A stretch of DNA of 64,000 bases from Roseitranquillus sediminis. Lineage in GTDB: Bacteria; Pseudomonadota; Alphaproteobacteria; Rhodobacterales; Rhodobacteraceae. The notes under the pieces were generated by a model. That model saw only the letters and a list, made by a program, of their open reading frames with translations. It searched no databases and was not told the DNA's origin. A program made the translations under genes and the position numbers. The stretch spans positions 8,237 through 72,236 of the forward strand of contig NZ_JAFFOB010000025.1 of assembly GCF_016918935.1 (NCBI RefSeq). The letters are read 5' to 3'. Of the stretch, positions 11,094-21,242 are shown piece by piece (position 1 is the first letter of the stretch; every line of letters starts with the position of its first letter).

Positions 11094-11975
11094 CTACTGG
11101 GCGGGGCGCGCCGTCGCTTCGGCTTCGGCCTGGACGCCGCGGCGAATCACCGACGCTTCAGTGCCGGCCTGAAAGCAGGTGAAGCCCTCGCGCTCGGACC
11201 GCCAGCGCAGCGGCCCGCAGAGCGCCTTGCCGCCGGCCTCCGCCGCGTCGGCGATCATTGTCACCAACTGCTCGTACTGCTCGTCACCTTCGCTGTAGCC
11301 CGAGAAGTTGCCGAGATCGCCGCTCGCCACCATCAGCGCGTCGTAGCCATCGAGCGCAGCGATCTCCTCGACATCCTCGACGCCCTCGAGCGTCTCGATC
11401 ATCAGGATCAGGACCACATTGTCGTTGAAGGTCTCGCGGTAGCCGCCCTCCACGTTCCGGTAGATTTCGGACGGCCCCTGGCCGCCACCGGCGCTGTGCC
11501 GGCCCAACGGTGGGAAACGAACCCACGAGATTGCCTCCTCCGCCTCTTCGACCGAGTCGATGGTGGGATAGACGATGACCATCGCGCCCGCGTCGAGGGC
11601 ATGCTGCGCCTCGCGCTCGCTAGTCTCGGCCAGGCGCACGCCGTGAACGGCATCCGCGTTGGGGCAGGCGGCATACATCCGCGCCACCTGTTCCCAGTCG
11701 GTCTGCTCGTGCTGCATCTCGACCCAGGTGAAGTCGTAGCCAGCATTGGCCATGGCGCAGTAGGTCCGCGGATCGGTCGCCCTGATGGTGCCGCCGACGA
11801 GGTCCTCGCCATTCATGATCTTCTGCTTGGCGGTGCTCCAGACGGGCACCTCGCCTTCAACATCGAAGCGCGGCCCATACTCCCAGTCGGCTGCCGAGAA
11901 ACCGCCATCTTGTGCGAAGGCGGCAGCTCCGCCAAGGATAGCCGCGATTGCCGCGAATGCAGTCGTTATTTTCAT
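11094..11975 (-). CDS. HpcH/HpaI-type aldolase homologue with signal peptide
   Basis: 293 residues. The body is an HpcH/HpaI aldolase / citrate-lyase-beta barrel: DFTWVEMQHEQTDW (about 87-100, His position kept), VRLAETSER (catalytic Arg region), VIVYPTIDSVEEAEEAISWV, RFPPLGRHSAGGG, and the metal ligands in LMIETLEGVED and MVASGDLG. Unusually it starts with a clear export signal, MKITTAFAAIAAILGG then AAAFAQD, and an extra 45-residue lead-in. Family members such as GarL act in the cytoplasm, cleaving keto-deoxy acids to pyruvate or tartronate semialdehyde. Here the enzyme, if folded, should be periplasmic. It sits between the ABM gene and garR. Confidence 0.85.
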   Translation of the reverse strand: MKITTAFAAIAAILGGAAAFAQDGGFSAADWEYGPRFDVEGEVPVWSTAKQKIMNGEDLVGGTIRATDPRTYCAMANAGYDFTWVEMQHEQTDWEQVARMYAACPNADAVHGVRLAETSEREAQHALDAGAMVIVYPTIDSVEEAEEAISWVRFPPLGRHSAGGGQGPSEIYRNVEGGYRETFNDNVVLILMIETLEGVEDVEEIAALDGYDALMVASGDLGNFSGYSEGDEQYEQLVTMIADAAEAGGKALCGPLRWRSEREGFTCFQAGTEASVIRRGVQAEAEATARPAQ

Positions 11976-12494: not shown

Positions 12495-13343
12495 CTAATG
12501 GGGCTTCACGGCGCCTATTCGCAGCGGCAGCGTTATGGTCGTGGGTGAAGTCGCAAGCTGGAAGTGCGCGTTCTCGATGCCCTCGACAATGACTTGGGAC
12601 ATCGCCGCGCTGGCGGCTGCGGCGTCGCCTCGTGTGACCGCCTCGAGCACGGCGTGGTGCCGCGCGATCGAGGCCGCGAGGCGCTCGCCGCTGTCGACGG
12701 GAGCGCTCACCTTGAAGGCGCGGAAGATCGACGCCTCGATGATGCTGCTGAAGGACAGCATGAAGGGATTGCCCGACGCGAACAGGATCTCTTGGTGGAA
12801 ATGCAGGTCCCACTCGCCATAGCTGTCACGGGTGTGCGCCGGGCGTGCCATCGCCATCAGGAAGAGGCGCATCCGGCGCAGGTTCTCGTTGGTGCGACGG
12901 ATCGCAGCCATCGCCGCTGCCGCCGGTTCGAGCGCCTGGCGCACCTCGAACACCTTGATGAGAAACTCCGAGTCCATGCCGGCGTCGATATGCCAGCTCA
13001 GCACCTGCGGGTCGTACATGTTCCAGCAGGCTTCTGGCAGCACCTTGGTGCCGATCTTCGTCTTCGCGACGATCATCCCTTTGGCGGCCAGCGTCTTCAG
13101 GGCCTCGCGCAGGACGGTACGCGATACGCCGAACTCCTCGATCAGCTGGCTCTCGTTCGGCAGGATACCGTCGGGCGGATAGACGCCCTTCATCACGCGG
13201 ATGGCGATCTCCCGCGTGATCAGTGCGTGCGCAGAGCGGACCCTCGAATCGAGTGATAGCCGCGGAAGCTCGGCCAGGTGCATGGCTGTTCCGGCAGACC
13301 TGGTCTTGCGTTCCTCACGTGTCTCTTGCTCCCCTATCGTCAT
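12495..13343 (-). CDS. FadR/GntR-family transcriptional regulator
   Basis: 282-residue regulator. The N-terminal winged helix contains IRVMKGVYPPDGILPNESQL and FGVSRTVLREALKTLAAKGM (about 55-100); the C-terminal all-helical FCD domain has the metal-binding style FEVRQALEPAAAAMA, WDLHFHQEILFASGNPFM and ARHHAVLEAV. ATG at 13343 was chosen because it follows GGGAGGAGAAGG; a longer frame to 13454 has no such site. FCD regulators sense organic acids such as gluconate, lactate or glycolate. Its position upstream of the aldolase-garR-kinase genes makes these its likely targets. Confidence 0.9.
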   Translation of the reverse strand: MTIGEQETREERKTRSAGTAMHLAELPRLSLDSRVRSAHALITREIAIRVMKGVYPPDGILPNESQLIEEFGVSRTVLREALKTLAAKGMIVAKTKIGTKVLPEACWNMYDPQVLSWHIDAGMDSEFLIKVFEVRQALEPAAAAMAAIRRTNENLRRMRLFLMAMARPAHTRDSYGEWDLHFHQEILFASGNPFMLSFSSIIEASIFRAFKVSAPVDSGERLAASIARHHAVLEAVTRGDAAAASAAMSQVIVEGIENAHFQLATSPTTITLPLRIGAVKPH

Positions 13344-13450
13344 CACCTTCTCCTCCCTGGCGCAACTTTGGAACTCTCGCACAGCTTCGGCGCGACGCAA
13401 AGTTGCACTGTTCCCGCGGCGCGAACAGGCGAATTGCCGCGACCCCCCGC

Positions 13451-14347
13451 TCACCCGGCGACGATTGCGGCGCGCAAACTCGCGAGGCTGTCGCGGAACG
13501 AAGTGACGAAGTCCCCATCGGCGGGTCGATTGGCGAGGGCCGGAAAGACGACGCTGGTGATGCCGAGGTTCATCAGCACTTGTCGCGTGTCGGCGCCTGG
13601 ATCGGCGTCCCAGAGCATGATCGTGGCCGGATGTTTCTCAAGAAGCGCATCCAGGGCGTCGAGTTGCTCCGGGCCAGGCGGCTTGTCTGCCTCCCACTCG
13701 ACGCTTTCCAGCGCGAGACCGTAGCGACGCGCGAGATACTGATACCGCGGGTGCGAGGCGAGGAGAGGTCGTCCGGCAGCCAGTGCGCCAACCTCCTCGG
13801 CTACGGCATCGAGCGTCGCGAGATCGGCAGCGAGTGCCTTGAGGTTCGCTTCGAAGAGCGCGGCCTCGCCAGGCAGGCGACGGGCGAGCGCTTCGGCCAC
13901 CGCTTCGGCCTGCAGCGTCGCCAGGTCAAGGTCCAGCCAGGTGAAGGGCGCGACGCCCGCGTGGGAGTGGTCACCTTCGGGACCGTGGCTGTGGGTGACG
14001 CCCTCGGTCTCGATGAGGGCGTCCGCGTAGGCTGTGGACGTATCGATCGTGCGCGAGCGGGGCAGGGAGGTCCGCGTCGTCCAATCGGCGAGCCCGGCGC
14101 CGGTGAGGAGAACAAGATCGGCCTGCTGGAACGTGGCGATTTCGGCGATGGGCGGCACCCAGTGCGCCGGATCAACGTCGGCCGGCACCGGCAGGACGAC
14201 CTCGGCAGTGTCGCCGGCGATGCGCTCGGCGAAGTAGGCGACGGGGTACGAGTCGGTGCGAACGTCCAGCGTCTCGGCACGGGCCGTCCCCGCGCCAAAT
14301 GTAAGCAGAGCGACCGCGGCCAGGTCGAGGGGCCGACGGCCGATCAC
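13451..14347 (-). CDS. ZnuA-like metal-binding periplasmic protein
   Basis: 298 residues, cluster A-I metal-binding protein of ABC importers. Signal peptide LAAVALLTFGAGTARAE; then YPVAYFAERIAGDTAEVVLP and DPAHWVPPIAEIATFQQADL (His ligand about 62), a short His-rich loop THSHGPEGDHSHAG (about 117-130), and LLASHPRYQYLARRYGL with further His. This fits Zn2+ or Mn2+ binding. Its ATG overlaps the stop of the NikL-like gene (ATGA), making it the seventh gene of the cassette. There is no ZnuB/ZnuC partner; the only ABC proteins nearby are the MacB-like pair upstream. Metal and direction of transport are unknown. Confidence 0.85.
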   Translation of the reverse strand: MIGRRPLDLAAVALLTFGAGTARAETLDVRTDSYPVAYFAERIAGDTAEVVLPVPADVDPAHWVPPIAEIATFQQADLVLLTGAGLADWTTRTSLPRSRTIDTSTAYADALIETEGVTHSHGPEGDHSHAGVAPFTWLDLDLATLQAEAVAEALARRLPGEAALFEANLKALAADLATLDAVAEEVGALAAGRPLLASHPRYQYLARRYGLALESVEWEADKPPGPEQLDALDALLEKHPATIMLWDADPGADTRQVLMNLGITSVVFPALANRPADGDFVTSFRDSLASLRAAIVAG

Positions 14348-14718
14348 GATTGTGTCTCTGCGTCGACGGATGCGCGCGCCATGTCCTGCGGCGTCAGTAT
14401 CCAGTAGTTCGAGTGCCCATCACCGGCGCTGACCTCGATCCGCAGTCCGCCCTCGTTGGCGAGACGCGGCAGTCGAACCGATCCGTCCGCGCCGAGACGT
14501 GTCTCGTGGATGAGCGCATCGGCGGCGTCATAGACGGTGACGACGCCTTCACGCGCCACGCGGCCGCTGGAGAACTTGGCCTCAACCACGATCGCTCCCT
14601 CCTCGATGAACGCGAAGACGTTCAATTGGTGAGCATGGGCTGGTCCGCTCGGGGCGAAGAGGAGCGCCAGGAGCGCGCCTACGACCTTGGTGGGTGCGTT
14701 GAAGGGCGGCGTCCGCAT
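14344..14718 (-). CDS. NikL/CbiL-like small periplasmic protein
   Basis: 124 residues: signal peptide (VVGALLALLFAPSGPAHA) then HQLNVFAFIEEGAIVVEAKF, the hallmark start of the NikL/CbiL-like accessory proteins of nickel and cobalt uptake systems, in which the newly exposed N-terminal His binds metal. The rest (VTVYDAADALIHETRLGADG, LPRLANEGGLRIEVSAGDGH) looks like a beta-sandwich of the carboxypeptidase-regulatory type. It starts three bases after the DUF4198 gene ends. Unlike NikL it lacks an obvious C-terminal membrane segment. Function inferred from family and context. Confidence 0.65.
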   Translation of the reverse strand: MRTPPFNAPTKVVGALLALLFAPSGPAHAHQLNVFAFIEEGAIVVEAKFSSGRVAREGVVTVYDAADALIHETRLGADGSVRLPRLANEGGLRIEVSAGDGHSNYWILTPQDMARASVDAETQS

Positions 14719-14721
14719 CTC

Positions 14722-15495
14722 CTACTCCGGCCACGGCTCGAAGCGGACCCACAGGACGGCGCCGAGCTCGACGTCCTTCTCGACCCCCTCGTGCGGCAGC
14801 TGGTAGTCCGCCGTCGTCAGGGCGGCAAAGCCCCACCAGCCGGGCCGGGGCGGGGCGTAGGTAAAGACGCCGTTGGCGTCGGCCTTGACCACCTGCGTGA
14901 TCATCAGGTCGCTTGGCACCTCGATGGCGCCGTCGGCGTTGTAGCGCTCGACCTCGACCTCGGCATAGGGGACCGGCTCGCCGCCGGCCTTGACGATGCC
15001 CTGAAAGACGTTCCCGCTCCAGAGCCCGAACGGGCGGGACAGCGGCACGATCTCGGTTTCCAGCCCGAGCTCGGCGTCCCAATCCGCGTTATCACCGAAA
15101 GCCGAGACGTAGGTCTTGGTGTAGTGGACGATGAAGACGTCCTCGGACGGCTCCCAGTACGGCTGGGGCTCCATGTGGAAGACATACGTTCCCGGCCTCT
15201 CGGGCGTGAAGCTGCCGGCCCAGGCGGCGCCATCTAGCACCCTCGCTTCGCTCAGCGTGTCGAGAAGGTCCGTGCTTTCGCCATTATGCAGGACGCCGAA
15301 AGCCTTCGGGCGGGCGAGGTCCATTCCAGTGGCCTCGAACGGATGCGAGAAAGAGAGCTCGAGGTCGATCGTGCGCATATCCTGCTGCGACACCATCGGA
15401 TCGGAGGGGATAAGCATGCCGAAGTGGCCGAAGGCCGGTCCGGCGACAACGGCCGCCGATGTCATCGAACAGAGCGCCAACGCTGGCCGCGTCAT
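14722..15495 (-). CDS. DUF4198 periplasmic protein (nickel-uptake NikK-like family)
   Basis: 257 residues with a signal peptide (ALALCSMTSAAVVAGPAFG) and mature start HFGMLIPSDPMVSQQD, typical of DUF4198 proteins found with nickel/cobalt ECF-type transporters. Further conserved parts are LELSFSHPFEATGMDLARP, FTPERPGTYVFHMEPQPYW and the end segment with GWWGFAALTTADY. ATG at 15495 is preferred to 15516 because it makes the same ATGA overlap with the permease stop that recurs along this operon. Exposed N-terminal His and several His/Asp suggest metal capture. Not characterised biochemically as far as can be told. Confidence 0.75.
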   Translation of the reverse strand: MTRPALALCSMTSAAVVAGPAFGHFGMLIPSDPMVSQQDMRTIDLELSFSHPFEATGMDLARPKAFGVLHNGESTDLLDTLSEARVLDGAAWAGSFTPERPGTYVFHMEPQPYWEPSEDVFIVHYTKTYVSAFGDNADWDAELGLETEIVPLSRPFGLWSGNVFQGIVKAGGEPVPYAEVEVERYNADGAIEVPSDLMITQVVKADANGVFTYAPPRPGWWGFAALTTADYQLPHEGVEKDVELGAVLWVRFEPWPE

Positions 15496-16670
15496 TCCCA
15501 GCTGCCGAGCAGCCATAGGGCAAGATCCTCCCGTCCCGCCGCAATTGCCGATACGACAACCGCCGCAAAAACTATACCGGCACCCAGCAGGATCGCAATC
15601 TCCGCCCCGATTAGTCGGAGAATTGTCGACCGGCGGCAGCCGAGCCTGAACACGGTCTCGATCTCGCCGCGGCGAAGCTCGAGCGACATGTAGAAAACGA
15701 GTGCGATCGCGAGAACCGCAGCCAGGGCAATGGTCGCCACCACGGTGTCGATAAGTCGCCCGATCCGGAACATGGTCGCGAGCAGCCCATCGACGACGTC
15801 CTGCGGCACGACGATCTGCAGCGGCTCCTCGCGGTCCAGATACCGCCCCCTGAGGATCACGCCCGACCGCTCGTCGTTCGGGACGGCGATCACGGCGGTA
15901 ACCGAGTAGCTGTCGGAACTGCCATGGAAATGAAAGCTGTCGATGTTCTCCGGCGTGATCTCGGCAAAAGTCGGCAGCGCTGGTCCCGCCACGACGTTCC
16001 GTTCAGTCCGCGCGAGGAGGTCGTCCGCCTCCGCTGCCTCGCCGTGGCCATGGCCGATGCCTTCGATCACCCAAGCCGTCTTCAGATCGACGAAGACGGC
16101 GCGGTCGTCGGGGCCGCCGGTGGCGGCCAGCACCCCCACCACCGGCATCCGAAGCGGGTACGTTCCGCCGAGGTCGAAGAGGTTTTCCGGGGAGGAAACG
16201 AGACTGTCACCCGGCGCCAGGCCAAGGTCCCGCGCCACCGTGGCGCCGAGCACCGCCTCTCCGAGGACGGCAAGATCGCGGCCGTCGGCTACTTCGAGTC
16301 CGCGGAACTCGAAATAGTCGAGCGTGGTGCCGACGATAGGCGCGCCTTGCGCCTCGAACCGGGCGTAGAGCGGGATGGCTGCGGCAAGCCCGCTCGCCCA
16401 GACTTCTTCCGAGGCCGCGACCGAGGTCAGCGGCGGCCGGTCACCGGTGAAGTAGAGGCTGTTCAGCACGAGGTCGAGCGTGCTGCCCCGCGCGCCGACG
16501 ACGAGCGGGGTCGACGCGGCGCGGGCGGTCATCTGGCGCTCGCTCGCGTCGAGGAGGAGGTGGATCACCGCCGGCACCGCGATGATCAAAGCCACGGCGA
16601 GGACGACGATCGCGCTCCGGGCCGCGTGGAAGCGGAGGTACTGGACGGCAAGGTAGAGCGTGCTGGTCAC
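15492..16670 (-). CDS. FtsX/MacB-like ABC permease with His-rich periplasmic loops
   Basis: 392 residues with the FtsX-like topology: one N-terminal helix (AIVVLAVALIIAVPAVIHLL), a large extracytoplasmic region, then three C-terminal helices (about 300-385) with the coupling segment LELRRGEIETVFRLGCRRST. The periplasmic domain holds two His clusters, GIGHGHGEAAEADD and SFHFHGSSDS, unusual for MacB-type permeases. It overlaps the ATPase stop by four bases. MacB-like systems are mechanotransmitters or exporters rather than classic importers, so the permease may pass metal between carriers or across the outer membrane. Inference. Confidence 0.85.
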   Translation of the reverse strand: MTSTLYLAVQYLRFHAARSAIVVLAVALIIAVPAVIHLLLDASERQMTARAASTPLVVGARGSTLDLVLNSLYFTGDRPPLTSVAASEEVWASGLAAAIPLYARFEAQGAPIVGTTLDYFEFRGLEVADGRDLAVLGEAVLGATVARDLGLAPGDSLVSSPENLFDLGGTYPLRMPVVGVLAATGGPDDRAVFVDLKTAWVIEGIGHGHGEAAEADDLLARTERNVVAGPALPTFAEITPENIDSFHFHGSSDSYSVTAVIAVPNDERSGVILRGRYLDREEPLQIVVPQDVVDGLLATMFRIGRLIDTVVATIALAAVLAIALVFYMSLELRRGEIETVFRLGCRRSTILRLIGAEIAILLGAGIVFAAVVVSAIAAGREDLALWLLGSWE

Positions 16671-17335
16671 GCCGGCATCGTCTGGCGAAAGCTGCGGAAG
16701 TCCACCACGCGGTCGAACCGGTCGAGCAGGTCGTGGTCGTGGGTCACCGCGAGGACGGTGGCGTTCTCGGCCTCCGCGCAGGAGAAGAGGAGGTCGAGGA
16801 TCACGCCCTTGGTCTCGGGGTCGAGGTTCCCCGTCGCCTCGTCGGCGAGCACGACCGGCGGCCGTGTCAGGAGGGCGCGGCAGATCGCGACGCGCTGCTT
16901 CTCGCCGTGGGAGAGTGCGCCGGGGCGGTGGCCGAGCTTGGCTCCGATCCCGGCACGCCAGGCAAGATCCTCGGCGCGCTTGCGGGTCGCTCCGTCTAGG
17001 GTGAGCGCGCCGCTGATCCGGTAGGGGTGCAGGATGTTGTCGCGGGCGCTGAGATACTCGACCAGCCCGAAGTCCTGGAAGACGGAACCGATGGTGCGGG
17101 CGCGAAAGTCACGTCGAGCGACATCCCCGAGGGTGTGGACTTCGACGTCACCGACGCGGACGCTGCCCGAGAAGGGCACGAGGATTCCGGCAACGAGACT
17201 GAGGAGTGTCGTCTTGCCCGAGCCGCTCGGCCCAACGACGGCAAGTCGCTCGCCACTGGCGGCTGCGAGGCGCGGGATCTCGAGGCGGAAGCCGGCTGAG
17301 GGATATGCGAAGCTGATGTCCTGAAGCGAAATCAT
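16667..17335 (-). CDS. ABC transporter ATPase (MacB/LolD type)
   Basis: 222-residue nucleotide-binding subunit. Walker A GPSGSGKTTLL (about 35-45), Q-loop VFQDFGLVEYLS, signature LSHGEKQRVAICRAL (about 140-154; SHGEK replaces SGGQ), Walker B PVVLADEATGNLD and switch His in AVTHDHDLLD. The D-loop and GNLD place it with the LolD/MacB group that partners FtsX-like permeases. ATG at 17335 overlaps the previous stop (ATGA), so the 18-codon longer reading to 17389 is rejected. Confidence 0.92.
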   Translation of the reverse strand: MISLQDISFAYPSAGFRLEIPRLAAASGERLAVVGPSGSGKTTLLSLVAGILVPFSGSVRVGDVEVHTLGDVARRDFRARTIGSVFQDFGLVEYLSARDNILHPYRISGALTLDGATRKRAEDLAWRAGIGAKLGHRPGALSHGEKQRVAICRALLTRPPVVLADEATGNLDPETKGVILDLLFSCAEAENATVLAVTHDHDLLDRFDRVVDFRSFRQTMPA

Positions 17336-18414
17336 CGCGGCGGATCGTCCCGCACGACGTCGATGAGGTCGAAGGCGCCGATCTTCCACGCGCCGTCCAC
17401 CGGCACGATCGCAAGATCGGCCTCGTAGCGGTTCACGCGGTCGTGGACGTGGCTCCAGTGTATGACCGAGCCGCGCACGCTCCAGACCCCGTGAACGCGA
17501 TATCCCTCGGCGCCGGGCAGCGGATCCGCTTCCGTGCGTTCGAGTTCGACGGACTGGACGTCCGAGCGCCGCCCGTCCTCCTGCAGAGAGAGCGCGGCGC
17601 GCTTCTGCAGGTAGAGGTCCGCGAGCACGTCGTCCGCTGCCACCGCGGCAAGCGCGTCGTAGATCTCATCCTCGTCCTGCTGCTCGAAGGCGAAGTAGAC
17701 CTGCTCGAGAAGGGCGCCGACGAGGCCGGGGATCTCTTCGTCGCTGAGCACGCGGCTGCCGGCCCTCAGATCGGCTGCGGAGCCGCGCTCTGCCTGGCGC
17801 TCAAGCGTGGCATTCACGAGGACGAGGGCGGCGACAACCGCAATCCACGCGCCGAGGCCACGGACCATGCCCTCGCGGCGCTGGCGCAGCGTCCGGCCGA
17901 GGGCGGCGCCAAGTGCGGTCACGGCGATGGCGCCGCCGACGGCCGCCAAGGCGTAGGCCGCGAGCGAGATCCACGACGCGTCGCCAATGCGGAGGATGGA
18001 CCCGATCCCGAGGCCGAAGAGGGCCGCGACGGCGGCCAGGCACAGGTTCACAGCGCCAGCGGTCCGGACGCCGATGGCCATCAGCGCGGCGATCGCGGCC
18101 GCTGCGCCCGCAATAAGCGCTTCAAGGTAGTAGGGGGCGCCGAAGGCGAACCCAGCGGCAACGCCGACGCAGAGAGCGGCAGGTCCCGACGTTACTGAGT
18201 ACGCCTTGGCCGGAACGCGCGCGGCGCCAAGGAGCGCACCGACGGCGAGGAGGGCGAGCCCGTTCTCCGGCGTTACGACGGCGCCGGCGCCGAAGACCAG
18301 CGCCTGGCCCAGACCCGCATCGGGAACGACAGCGTGGCCCGAGGAGGGTAGCAGCGCAGTTCCTGTGACCAGTGCTGCGAAGACGCGCTTGCCTTGATGT
18401 GCTCGGCTGATCAT
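17332..18414 (-). CDS. Polytopic membrane protein with C-terminal soluble domain, unknown
   Basis: 360 residues. An N-terminal signal-like helix is followed by about six to seven hydrophobic segments up to residue 205, with a layout reminiscent of HupE/UreJ proteins (GLALLAVGALLGAA, FAFGAPYYLEALIAGAAAAI) but without their His-rich motifs. Residues 205-360 are soluble, acidic in the middle (FEQQDEDEIYDALAAVAADD) and end in EADLAIVPVDGAWKIGAFDL, which looks like a small alpha+beta NTF2- or Tim44-like domain. It sits between the HupE-like and ATPase genes. Function not recognised. Confidence 0.75.
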   Translation of the reverse strand: MISRAHQGKRVFAALVTGTALLPSSGHAVVPDAGLGQALVFGAGAVVTPENGLALLAVGALLGAARVPAKAYSVTSGPAALCVGVAAGFAFGAPYYLEALIAGAAAAIAALMAIGVRTAGAVNLCLAAVAALFGLGIGSILRIGDASWISLAAYALAAVGGAIAVTALGAALGRTLRQRREGMVRGLGAWIAVVAALVLVNATLERQAERGSAADLRAGSRVLSDEEIPGLVGALLEQVYFAFEQQDEDEIYDALAAVAADDVLADLYLQKRAALSLQEDGRRSDVQSVELERTEADPLPGAEGYRVHGVWSVRGSVIHWSHVHDRVNRYEADLAIVPVDGAWKIGAFDLIDVVRDDPPR

Positions 18415-18429
18415 CCGCGCCGTGCGCGC

Positions 18430-19782
18430 CTAGAAGCGCTGCGCAAGCGAGTTGCGGTCGGCGCCGTCCTCTGGATCGGCGCTCAAGCCGGAGAAGATCC
18501 AGAGCAGCATCGCGGAGGCGATGATGGCGATCAGCCAGGACATCGCACCCGACGCGACCAGCGCCTCCAGCGGCGGCCACGGAAACTGGCCCAGGAGCGC
18601 TGCCCGCTCGACCGCCATGTGCCAAGCCGAATGCGCTACGAAGGCCGAGAGCACGATAGTGCCGACCCGCGCCGGCACGACGAAACGGAATGCCACTTGC
18701 AGGGCAGCTATCGCGAGGGCCAAGGCGGCTAGCGCGGCCAGTCCCGCGCCCGCGTCGAACGCGATGATTGCCGTCAAGAGGTGGGCGCCCGCGAACTGGA
18801 CGTTTTCGGCGAAGGGCGCCGACAGGGCAAAGCCGATCGGCAGACCGAGAAACGGAGAAACTCGCCAGCGGCGTCGGTAAGTGGCGCCGACGATATTCTC
18901 GACCGATAGATAAATGATCGAGGCGGCAATGAGGAATGAAACCAGATATGGGAACCAGAGGGTATTGGGCGTGAGGCCCCATCCCGATGCCATCAGGCCG
19001 GCGGTCTGCCCTAGAAGGAAGGCCCCGCCGGTTATCAGGAGCTGCCTTGAGCCGATCAGCGGCATCGCCATTGCCAGGAGCAGAAGGAGGTACTCGGATC
19101 TGGCCGAGATTTCGCGGAAGCCTCTTTCCGAATAGAGCCACACGGTTTGCCACCAGCTCGGGTCGAGGTGTACCTGCCCGACGTCGGCATGCACGTCATA
19201 CACCCGGTCGGTGCCGTCCGCGCCGAGGTATCGCATCACGACGTTGACCTGCAGGCCGAGCCGCGCGAGCGCCGGCTCGATGGAAAAGCTCGAATTTTCC
19301 GAAGAAATCGGATATCCATAGGCGATCTGCAGCAGGCCCTGCTCCCACAAGATCTTCGTGTCCGCTGGCAGGTCCGCCTGCGTCGTATGGGCAAGCGCCG
19401 CGTCGTATCCTTCGGTGAACGTGTCGTCAGATGGCAGCGACACGCGCGCATCCAGTACTTCAGGCTGCGGCAACGGTTCGCCGTTCTCGTAGACTTCGAT
19501 GACGTCGCGGACCCAGATCTGCGCCGCGCCTTCGAGCGAGGTGCGAATGTTCGGCAGGTCAAGATAGCCTTCGCTGTCTGTCGCGATGTCGACATCCCGC
19601 AGGGAGTCCATCGGCAGCCGCAGCAGGAGGGTCAGGGTGTCTCCCTCGGGCTTGACGTAGGTGAGGACCGTCACTTCGTTCGGGACCTCGTGCGCGGTCG
19701 CGGTGCCGGCGCCGCCCACGGCCGCCAGCGCGAGCGTGAGGTGGAGCAACAACATGTTGCGGATTCCGCAAAGGCGGCCCAT
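18430..19782 (-). CDS. HupE/UreJ-like membrane protein with periplasmic N-terminal domain
   Basis: 450 residues: signal peptide (LTLALAAVGGAGTATAHE), a periplasmic domain of about 200 residues starting HEVPNEVTVLTYVKPEGDTL, then seven hydrophobic segments resembling the HupE/UreJ family of nickel/cobalt/urease-associated permeases. VAHSAWHMAVE near residue 400 keeps a His pair, but the usual HLLF and AHSLTL metal positions of the first helices are replaced. ATG at 19782 is the best-placed start; 19812 and a later one are possible. First gene of the seven-gene cassette. Confidence 0.75.
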   Translation of the reverse strand: MGRLCGIRNMLLLHLTLALAAVGGAGTATAHEVPNEVTVLTYVKPEGDTLTLLLRLPMDSLRDVDIATDSEGYLDLPNIRTSLEGAAQIWVRDVIEVYENGEPLPQPEVLDARVSLPSDDTFTEGYDAALAHTTQADLPADTKILWEQGLLQIAYGYPISSENSSFSIEPALARLGLQVNVVMRYLGADGTDRVYDVHADVGQVHLDPSWWQTVWLYSERGFREISARSEYLLLLLAMAMPLIGSRQLLITGGAFLLGQTAGLMASGWGLTPNTLWFPYLVSFLIAASIIYLSVENIVGATYRRRWRVSPFLGLPIGFALSAPFAENVQFAGAHLLTAIIAFDAGAGLAALAALALAIAALQVAFRFVVPARVGTIVLSAFVAHSAWHMAVERAALLGQFPWPPLEALVASGAMSWLIAIIASAMLLWIFSGLSADPEDGADRNSLAQRF

Positions 19783-19922
19783 TTCTCTGATGAATAGCGA
19801 AAAGCCGGTCATTTCTCTGACAATTGCAAGGGGTGATCTCAATTATCTCGACAGTTGTGACGCCGCTTGTCTAGTCTTTTTCTACCGAGGCCGCGAATGG
19901 CCGATCAGAGGAGGAGGAAAGC

Positions 19923-21242
19923 ATGCGGTGGTTTCCATCAAGGCGCAAGGCGCTCGCGGGTGGCAGCGTGCTCGCGCTTGTCGCGGTCGTGGGTGCCGGG
20001 CAGTTCGCGTTCGAGGGCGCGTCGGCGCAGGACGCAAGCGCTTCGGCCCAAGAGGCGCCGCGCTTCGAGGTTGATCCGTTCTGGCCAAAGCCGATGCCGA
20101 ACAACTGGGCGCTGGGGCAGGCGATCGGTGTCGCGGTCGACAAGGACGACAACATCTGGATCATCCATCGCGGATGGGATCCGGCTGCATTCGATCCCAC
20201 CGATCTCGCAGTTCCGCCGGAAGGCAGCAGGAATGCCGGGCAAGTGGTCGGGGAGTGCTGCAATCCGTCGCCCCCGGTCATGCAGTTCGACCAGGAGGGC
20301 AACCTTCTGCAGGCGTGGGGCGGACCGACGGATACCGGCGAGTATGAGTGGCCAGCCTCTAACCACGGCATCGCTGTCGACGATGAGGGCCACGTCTACA
20401 TCGGCGGCAACGGGGGTTCCGACGCGCACGTCCTGAAGTTCACGTCAGACGGAGAATTTGTGGCGCAGTGGGGCGCTTCGCACGCGCGCATGGTCGACGC
20501 GGACGGCGCGTCTGTCGAGCCCGACCCGTTGACGGGTTATGCCGGCCTCGCTCCGGGCGGAGAGGTCCCTGAAGGTTTCTCCTTCCAAGCCAATTCAATG
20601 GACATGGAAAACTTCGGCCGGGTGGCCAAGGTCGACCTCGATCAGGAGGCCAACGAGGCGTACCTGTCGGACGGCTACGGCAACCACCGCGTGGCCGTTG
20701 TCGACATGGACAGCGGCGAGATCAAGCGGTTCTGGGGTGCCTATGGCGAGCCCCCGACGGACGAGGATCTTGGCCCCTATGATCCGTCCGCACCGCCGGC
20801 ACGGCAGTTCCGCAATCCGGTTCACTGCGCGAACGTATCGGACGATGGGCTGGTCTATGTCTGCGACCGTCCCAACAACCGCGTCCAGATCTTCCAAGAG
20901 GACGGCACGTTCGTGCAGGAGGTCTTCGTGGCGCCCGAGACCCTCTACGACGGCTCGGTCTGGGACATCGACTTCTCGGCGGACCCGGAGCAGCGCTACC
21001 TCTACATGGCCGACGGCCAGAACGAGCACCTCCGGGTGTTCGATCGCGAGACCATGCAGGAGCTCTACAACTTCGGGACCGGCGGTCGTCAGCCGGGCAT
21101 GTGGATGGGCTTGCACAGCATCGCCGTGGACTCGCAGGGCAATCTGTACACTACCGAGACCTACACCGGTAAGCGTCTGCAGAAGTTCGTGAACATGGGC
21201 ATGGCGCCCGCCGCACCGATGCAGGTTGCCTGGCCGGGCTAG
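19923..21242 (+). CDS. Secreted NHL-type beta-propeller protein
   Basis: 439 residues. N-terminal signal with a pair of arginines (SRRKALAGGSVLALVAVVG) and cleavage near ASAQD, so export to the periplasm is likely. The rest consists of repeated six-bladed propeller units: GIAVDDEGHVYIGGNGGSDA, VLKFTSDGEFVAQWG, AYLSDGYGNHRVAVVDMDSG, VYVCDRPNNRVQIFQEDGTF and HSIAVDSQGNLYTTETYTGK. Related proteins include peptidyl-alpha-hydroxyglycine alpha-amidating lyase, but a binding or scaffold role is just as possible. ATG at 19923 follows AGGAGGAGGAAAGC. It diverges from the metal cassette across 140 bases. Confidence 0.85.
   Translation: MRWFPSRRKALAGGSVLALVAVVGAGQFAFEGASAQDASASAQEAPRFEVDPFWPKPMPNNWALGQAIGVAVDKDDNIWIIHRGWDPAAFDPTDLAVPPEGSRNAGQVVGECCNPSPPVMQFDQEGNLLQAWGGPTDTGEYEWPASNHGIAVDDEGHVYIGGNGGSDAHVLKFTSDGEFVAQWGASHARMVDADGASVEPDPLTGYAGLAPGGEVPEGFSFQANSMDMENFGRVAKVDLDQEANEAYLSDGYGNHRVAVVDMDSGEIKRFWGAYGEPPTDEDLGPYDPSAPPARQFRNPVHCANVSDDGLVYVCDRPNNRVQIFQEDGTFVQEVFVAPETLYDGSVWDIDFSADPEQRYLYMADGQNEHLRVFDRETMQELYNFGTGGRQPGMWMGLHSIAVDSQGNLYTTETYTGKRLQKFVNMGMAPAAPMQVAWPG

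Follow-up and report, generated by a model that had tools for sequence, protein, structure and literature searches.

The subject of this report is an operon of seven minus-strand genes, here lettered A to G from its upstream end, on a 64,000-nucleotide stretch of the Roseitranquillus sediminis genome (assembly GCF_016918935.1, contig NZ_JAFFOB010000025.1, positions 8,237 to 72,236), hereafter the window. A first-pass annotation made from the letters alone had described seven one-strand genes with overlaps or short gaps, and all seven open reading frames (ORFs) were confirmed at their positions. Their products appear to be periplasmic metal-handling proteins arranged around an ATP-binding cassette (ABC) pair of the MacB type. 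The features, with the evidence for each, are:

18430..19755, minus strand: A, anglerase-type (Ang-1-like) domain plus degenerate HupE_UreJ_2 domain (PF13795)
17332..18414, minus strand: B, degenerate HupE-like domain plus NTF2-like tail (hhalign against PF04955; Foldseek)
16667..17335, minus strand: C, LolD/FtsE-type ABC ATPase (PF00005)
15492..16670, minus strand: D, MacB-type permease with three predicted transmembrane (TM) helices (PF12704)
14722..15495, minus strand: E, DUF4198 protein (PF10670)
14344..14718, minus strand: F, small NikL-like exported protein (NF058648, below cut-off)
13451..14347, minus strand: G, ZnuA-like substrate-binding protein (SBP) (PF01297)
19756..19922, no strand: intergenic region between the operon and a divergent NHL gene, without a Zur, NikR, Fur, Mur or CueR box

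Gene A probably starts with the ATG at 19755 rather than at 19782 (its ORF is open to 19782/19842), C probably at 17335 (open to 17389) and E probably at 15495 (open to 15516). With the corrected starts of C and E, four of the six junctions (B-C, C-D, D-E and F-G) are 4-nt ATGA overlaps, which suggest that the operon genes are translationally coupled; at the remaining two junctions the genes lie 15 and 3 bases apart. A FadR-type regulator gene at 12495-13454 was excluded as an operon member, its likely start being internal and the gene not recurring in relatives. Scanning the window with Rfam gave no match. Histidine makes up 1.5-3.2 % of the operon proteins, which is not unusually high and corrects the earlier view that each exported part exposes or concentrates histidines; the unusual feature is the conservation of particular His residues and not His content. 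In A (TATA/HEVP), E (PAFG/HFGM) and F (PAHA/HQLN), a histidine directly follows a plausible A-x-A/G signal-peptidase site (slash), these sites having been placed by eye with the A-x-A rule and not with SignalP.

The ATPase C matches ABC_tran (PF00005, 95.8 bits), and its best NCBIfam matches, all under their cut-offs, are FtsE, YbbA and LolD. The permease D matches MacB_PCD (PF12704) with 47.1 bits against a cut-off of 27, and scores only 15.2 bits with the FtsX family (cut-off 25.5). The first-pass description of a metal-handling cassette built on a MacB/FtsX-type ABC pair is supported. An AlphaFold2 model of D (predicted local distance difference test score, pLDDT, 87.5) has a MacB-like fold, in which TM1 is followed by a large periplasmic domain and a C-terminal FtsX-type TM bundle; Foldseek matched it to MacB (E 2.7e-11), LolCDE and other type VII transporters including BceAB and YbbAP. 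Hydropathy detects three TM segments in D versus four in ZrgB, the permease of the Vibrio Zrg system, and TM4 of the MacB plan therefore seems to be missing from D. Given that LolCDE, BceAB and YbbAP are structural neighbours of D and that C is FtsE/LolD/YbbA-like, the operon might be read as a non-metal envelope device for lipoprotein release, sensing or peptide detoxification in the manner of LolCDE or BceAB, its histidines being structural. Such a device is highly improbable, considering that the DUF4198, NikL-like and ZnuA-like families are independently linked to metals, that A is of the anglerase type, that only one permease is encoded where Lol systems have the LolC/LolE pair, and that the invariant histidines lie in motifs.

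Leaving aside the window genome, a search for D in the genomes of 41 relatives gave five strong homologues, with the same neighbour order (B-tail gene, C, D, G). Three of these five loci have DUF4198 and NikL genes between D and G, and in L025, on a short contig, the G homologue lies upstream instead. Scanning 84,980 species genomes with an alignment of six permeases yielded 398 D relatives, the best 80 of which provide the counts given here. An ATPase gene lies directly upstream of the permease gene in 79/80 loci, a ZnuA-like gene is found nearby in 71/80 (most of the nine misses being close to contig ends), and 69/80 have upstream of the permease a gene for the tail, either by itself or at the C-terminus of a 600-residue protein that we call Big. 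This gene set is far beyond chance, and the conservation of gene order that the first-pass annotation had proposed to look for is present. DUF4198 and NikL-like genes occur in only 24/80 and 23/80 loci, respectively. The conserved unit is the core of B tail, C, D and G, to which DUF4198 and NikL add the mark of a mostly Rhodobacterales subtype; A was seen only in the window and in one Bauldia metagenome-assembled genome (MAG).

Three architectures were distinguished. In the first, a Big gene precedes C-D-G (35-36 loci, in gamma- and betaproteobacteria, Desulfobacterota, Nitrospinota, Myxococcota and Tectimicrobiota); the second has the order tail-C-D-DUF4198-NikL-G (about 20 loci, nearly all in Rhodobacterales); the third, in which an anglerase-like A accompanies a HupE-like domain fused to the tail, comprises only the window and the Bauldia MAG locus (L027), whose permease is 67 % identical to D. 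The relatives belong to Pseudomonadota, Desulfobacterota, Nitrospinota and other phyla, and a strong D homologue occurs in only 5 of 398 evenly sampled Pseudomonadota genomes; the permease family is widespread but patchy. In Rubrimonas cliftonensis (L058:5134-5997), a second, divergent DUF4198 gene lies between the NikL-like and ZnuA-like genes.

The His motifs noted at first reading (GHGHGE and HFHGSS in D, and the His loop of G) are all present. In D, H207/H209 (GHGH) and H247/H249 (FHFHG, in the periplasmic core domain) are invariant in 69/69 aligned homologues. Because one of the scan patterns contained FHFHG, the check was repeated on independently found homologues: GxGHGH and FHFHG both occur in 9/9 D homologues recovered by a whole-protein search free of motif patterns, which rules out a search artefact as the source of FHFHG invariance, and GHGH was never part of any pattern. 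The next-best relatives of D in nearby genomes are ZrgB permeases, which adjoin ZrgA and lack both motifs, in agreement with the earlier proposal that Zrg is the nearest kin. When 84 D sequences were placed in a tree with 20 ZrgB or other sequences, by a quick method and with long branches flagged, the two groups separated with support of 100. The MacB fold of D would also suit an exporter of metal, free or bound to a chelator, of the sort suggested for the pyochelin-cobalt system PA4063-PA4066, in which PA4064/4065 make up a MacB-type transporter of two polypeptides accompanied by a metal-binding protein in the periplasm (PMC11481552). We regard export as very unlikely for this operon, since MacA, TolC and metallophore biosynthesis genes are neither in it nor recurrent neighbours of its relatives, and since the predominant partner, a binding protein whose histidines are conserved, is no adaptor.

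G belongs to the ZnuA family (PF01297, 128.8 bits), and its ligand positions were read against the true ZnuA of the same genome, encoded beside zur and znuB on contig C36 and complete in its canonical ligands. The four histidines of the G loop HxHG(N)4HxH (H119, H121, H127 and H129) are invariant in 75/75 aligned members. The canonical His1 is missing from all of them (0/75; A, S, V or M instead) and His2 from 72/75, being present in three, while His3 is kept in 73/75 and the acid ligand in 72/75 (E in 71, D in the window); G carries H199. Loss of His1 and His2 together with the invariant four-His loop indicates that G is a ZnuA-fold protein with a rebuilt predicted metal site, and we infer that it binds metal. 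The annotation of G as ZnuA-like with a His loop is corrected in that the canonical ZnuA site is absent.

A had been taken for a HupE/UreJ-like permease. It matches HupE_UreJ_2 (PF13795, 44.4 bits, cut-off 24.5), and its predicted N-terminal His aligns with that of related proteins. However, A and its L027 homologue have lost the HupE signature HILxGxDH, GHT, LLHG and GVE, which 27 related HupE proteins retain, and the loss of these ligands makes the permease assignment improbable. Sequence searches of the PDB with A, E, F and the B tail found no relative and also missed the anglerase structure 9GCE; the link between A and the anglerases is drawn from PF13795, the architecture and the alignment with related proteins. 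B, which has no Pfam or NCBIfam family match, was described as a second polytopic protein with a soluble tail; this description is corrected in that its N-terminus is degenerate HupE-like and its tail NTF2-like. Residues 1-205 align with HupE/UreJ (PF04955) at a hhalign P of 2.2e-6 over 175 columns, compared with P 0.17 for the reversed sequence and P 0.03-0.5 for ABC-3 permeases as controls, but B lacks the HP...DH and FHG ligands. The periplasmic tail (residues 206-360, with H319/H322/H324) is modelled at a pLDDT of about 95 over residues 227-356 as an NTF2-like a3b4 domain, for which Foldseek returned ARC6/PARC6 intermembrane-space, VirB8-type and NTF2-like domains; the His positions of its G-H-W-G-H-x-H (HxxHxH) motif are kept in at least 90 % of 59 homologues. 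The membrane parts of A and B are probably HupE-derived anchors for predicted periplasmic metal-binding domains and not permeases. Without permease ligands in either HupE-like domain, the ABC pair is left as the only motor.

E is a clear DUF4198 protein (PF10670, 190 bits) in which the predicted N-terminal His H31, together with H58 and H131, is invariant in 28/28 sequences (numbering from the ORF open to 15516). F is NikL-like with 79.6 bits against NF058648, below the cut-off of 100, and its predicted N-terminal His H30 and H102 are invariant in 26/26. A DUF4198 protein binds Ni via His1 and His18, and the Ang-1 domain binds Cu or Ni via His1 in the same work, from which the definition of anglerases is taken (PMC12537917). 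Orphan NikK/NikL proteins without NikMQO were recorded in earlier comparative work, which assigned them no partner (PMC2667541).

The first-pass annotation had proposed to test whether Zur, NikR or Mur sites precede the operon, and none were found. A Zur position weight matrix (PWM) derived from five Caulobacter sites in the literature (PMC4176598) scores 22.5 at the znuA-zur intergenic region of the same genome, our positive control, but only 0.8 upstream of the operon, with a window maximum of 8.7, and Zur control of the window operon is rejected on this comparison. A pattern scan for NikR, Fur, Mur/Irr and CueR sites upstream of the operon detected none, and a de novo motif search upstream of 25 Rhodobacterales-type operons returned only GC-rich noise. 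The canonical znuA/zur/znuB locus L123 (G000:C36:28000-37000) carries the Zur box CCTGTAATTATATAACGTT between znuA and zur. Among 64 relatives, a clear Zur box is seen in one, Anianabacter salinae (L060:4907-7860), where two Zur-like boxes occupy the intergenic region shared by zrgA-zrgC-zrgB and a divergent tail-C-D-DUF4198-NikL-ZnuA operon; a weaker hit (20.7) is present in L044. With no Zur box upstream, a role as a starvation importer under Zur control is improbable for the operon, which the Anianabacter arrangement nonetheless links to zinc.

Alternatively, the ABC pair could be a metal importer that moves Zn (or Ni/Co) from G to the cytoplasm, as has been proposed for Vibrio ZrgABC. Such a role would account for the SBP-like gene being nearly universal in the operon (71/80), for ZrgB being the nearest relative of D, with ZrgA required for growth when zinc is limiting (PMC9820375), and for the divergent Anianabacter operons around Zur boxes. 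We nevertheless consider import doubtful: no import pore is known for MacB-type permeases, D is predicted to have just three TM helices, no Zur box precedes the window operon and the single clear one among the relatives is common to zrg, the genome already holds ZnuABC-Zur and a second ABC-3 system outside the operon, and G has lost the canonical SBP ligands that pass metal to ABC-3 permeases.

Comparison with known systems places the operon functionally closest to Zrg. In ZrgABCDE (Vibrio) and PA4063-PA4066 (Pseudomonas), as here, a separate LolD-type ATPase and a MacB-type permease with a large periplasmic domain are encoded together with a His-bearing periplasmic metal-binding protein. The operon differs in having a ZnuA-like SBP where Zrg has ZrgA (PF10986), for which there is no match in the operon or elsewhere in its genome although 10 of the 41 genomes searched are positive; no Pfam match to ZrgE (DUF3299) was found in any of the seven proteins, the Zur box that characterizes Zrg is lacking, and D, with its GHGH and FHFHG motifs and three predicted TM helices, forms a clade of its own. 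ZnuABC and AztABC (cluster A-I) share with G the PF01297 family, a His loop, His3 and an acid residue; the partner encoded here is a MacB_PCD protein, and, as already noted at first reading, the operon contains no ABC-3 permease, the ABC-3 genes of the genome being on other contigs. A resembles the anglerases (Ang-1-HupE/UreJ-2) in its signal peptide-His architecture and PF13795 match, but neither known member of the window operon type retains the HupE metal-ligand signature. Similarly, E (DUF4198, NikK-like) and F recall the accessory pair of NikKMLQO, with a MacB-type pair as partner and no NikM, NikQ or NikO among the seven proteins. MacAB-TolC and LolCDE are alike in the fold of D and the type of C, and differ in the three TM helices, the missing MacA and TolC, the missing LolC/LolE pair and the SBP encoded in the operon. 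Because defining features of Zrg, ZnuABC, NikKMLQO and MacAB-TolC are lacking, the operon is not to be filed under any of them. Separate parts were found in the open-access literature and the seven-gene combination was not, such that the system is apparently undescribed, as first supposed.

Our preferred interpretation, to which we assign a probability of roughly 0.45, is a membrane-anchored, ATP-driven relay for periplasmic metal capture and hand-over, of the type VII, mechanotransmission kind represented by MacB. MacB-type transporters act by mechanotransmission on periplasmic partners (PMC11481552). By analogy with solved relatives, the Ang domain of A, along with E and F, would catch a periplasmic transition metal via exposed N-terminal histidines; the metal would next move to the four-His loop of G and the HxxHxH of the B tail, as their conservation suggests; finally, if the fold of D is a guide, ATP hydrolysis by C would move the periplasmic core domain of D so that loaded carriers are emptied or handed on, with the GHGH and FHFHG motifs possibly taking part in docking or metal transfer. 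Zn is the most likely metal, with Ni or Co possible. We favour delivery to extracytoplasmic clients over cytoplasmic import because MacB-type proteins act periplasmically and because relatives adjoin genes for exported metallohydrolases. GntH-like exported metallo-beta-lactamase (MBL) genes flank 17/80 ABC loci, which form a 17-locus cluster, plus L024, and GntH-type MBL-fold proteins account for 16/94 close neighbours, beside Big-type operons. In Rhodobacterales genomes, the MBL-Big pair is also accompanied by a canonical HupE permease and no ABC pair, the MBL being present in 9/9 Big-bearing loci. The Big/tail protein thus seems able to pair with either of two transporters, HupE or the ABC pair with its SBP, which points to metal as the common subject and to an exported enzyme as a possible client. 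Several observations sit uneasily with such a relay: L051 and L071 contain C-D-G only, without a tail gene in reach; the MBL neighbour is confined to the Big subtype and absent from that of the window; and growth at low zinc depends on ZrgABC (PMC9820375), in keeping with import.

The role of MacB-type pairs in metal homeostasis is disputed, ZrgABC having been called a zinc importer and PA4063-4066 a pyochelin-cobalt exporter. The operon represents an unnamed branch with invariant candidate metal-contact residues in the permease itself, and as such would allow a clean test of mechanotransmission acting on metal. It offers a plausible partner for orphan NikK/NikL-type proteins, exposes HupE domains that are losing their ligands beside an ABC motor, and corrects the annotation as "ZnuA" of a protein in which half of the ZnuA site is missing. 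A bolder and, in our estimation, unlikely extension is a new class of system in which His-brace proteins and a ZnuA-like protein of the loop type supply the metal that a MacB-type motor loads into exported metalloenzymes, for example GntH-like MBLs, with no crossing of the inner membrane.

Further observations concern the genes around the related loci. The ABC-less modules have the order exported GntH-like MBL, Big protein and then mostly an anglerase-type HupE with an intact HILxGxDH (L167:1607-6221, L168:5375-9985, L171:8466-12825, plus L169, L170, L172, L173, L175 and L176). The MBL proteins at L080:4700-5944 and L024:4482-5702 score 415 and 468 bits, respectively, against a cut-off of 333 for the NCBI GntH (guanitoxin) equivalog; no guanitoxin genes were noticed around them, and the GntH model is probably too broad. 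A Desulfobulbaceae MAG encodes an exported metalloenzyme of the arginase/agmatinase family between the Big and ATPase genes (L079:5608-6903). In the window, an HpcH/HpaI-type aldolase homologue encoded on one flank of the operon (11094-11975, minus strand) has an apparent N-terminal signal peptide, which is unusual for a family of cytoplasmic enzymes. The divergent gene upstream of the operon (19923-21242, plus strand) encodes an exported NHL-repeat propeller that weakly resembles peptidylglycine amidating lyase (3fvz, E 5e-6), and a homologue with 72 % identity also adjoins the L027 operon.

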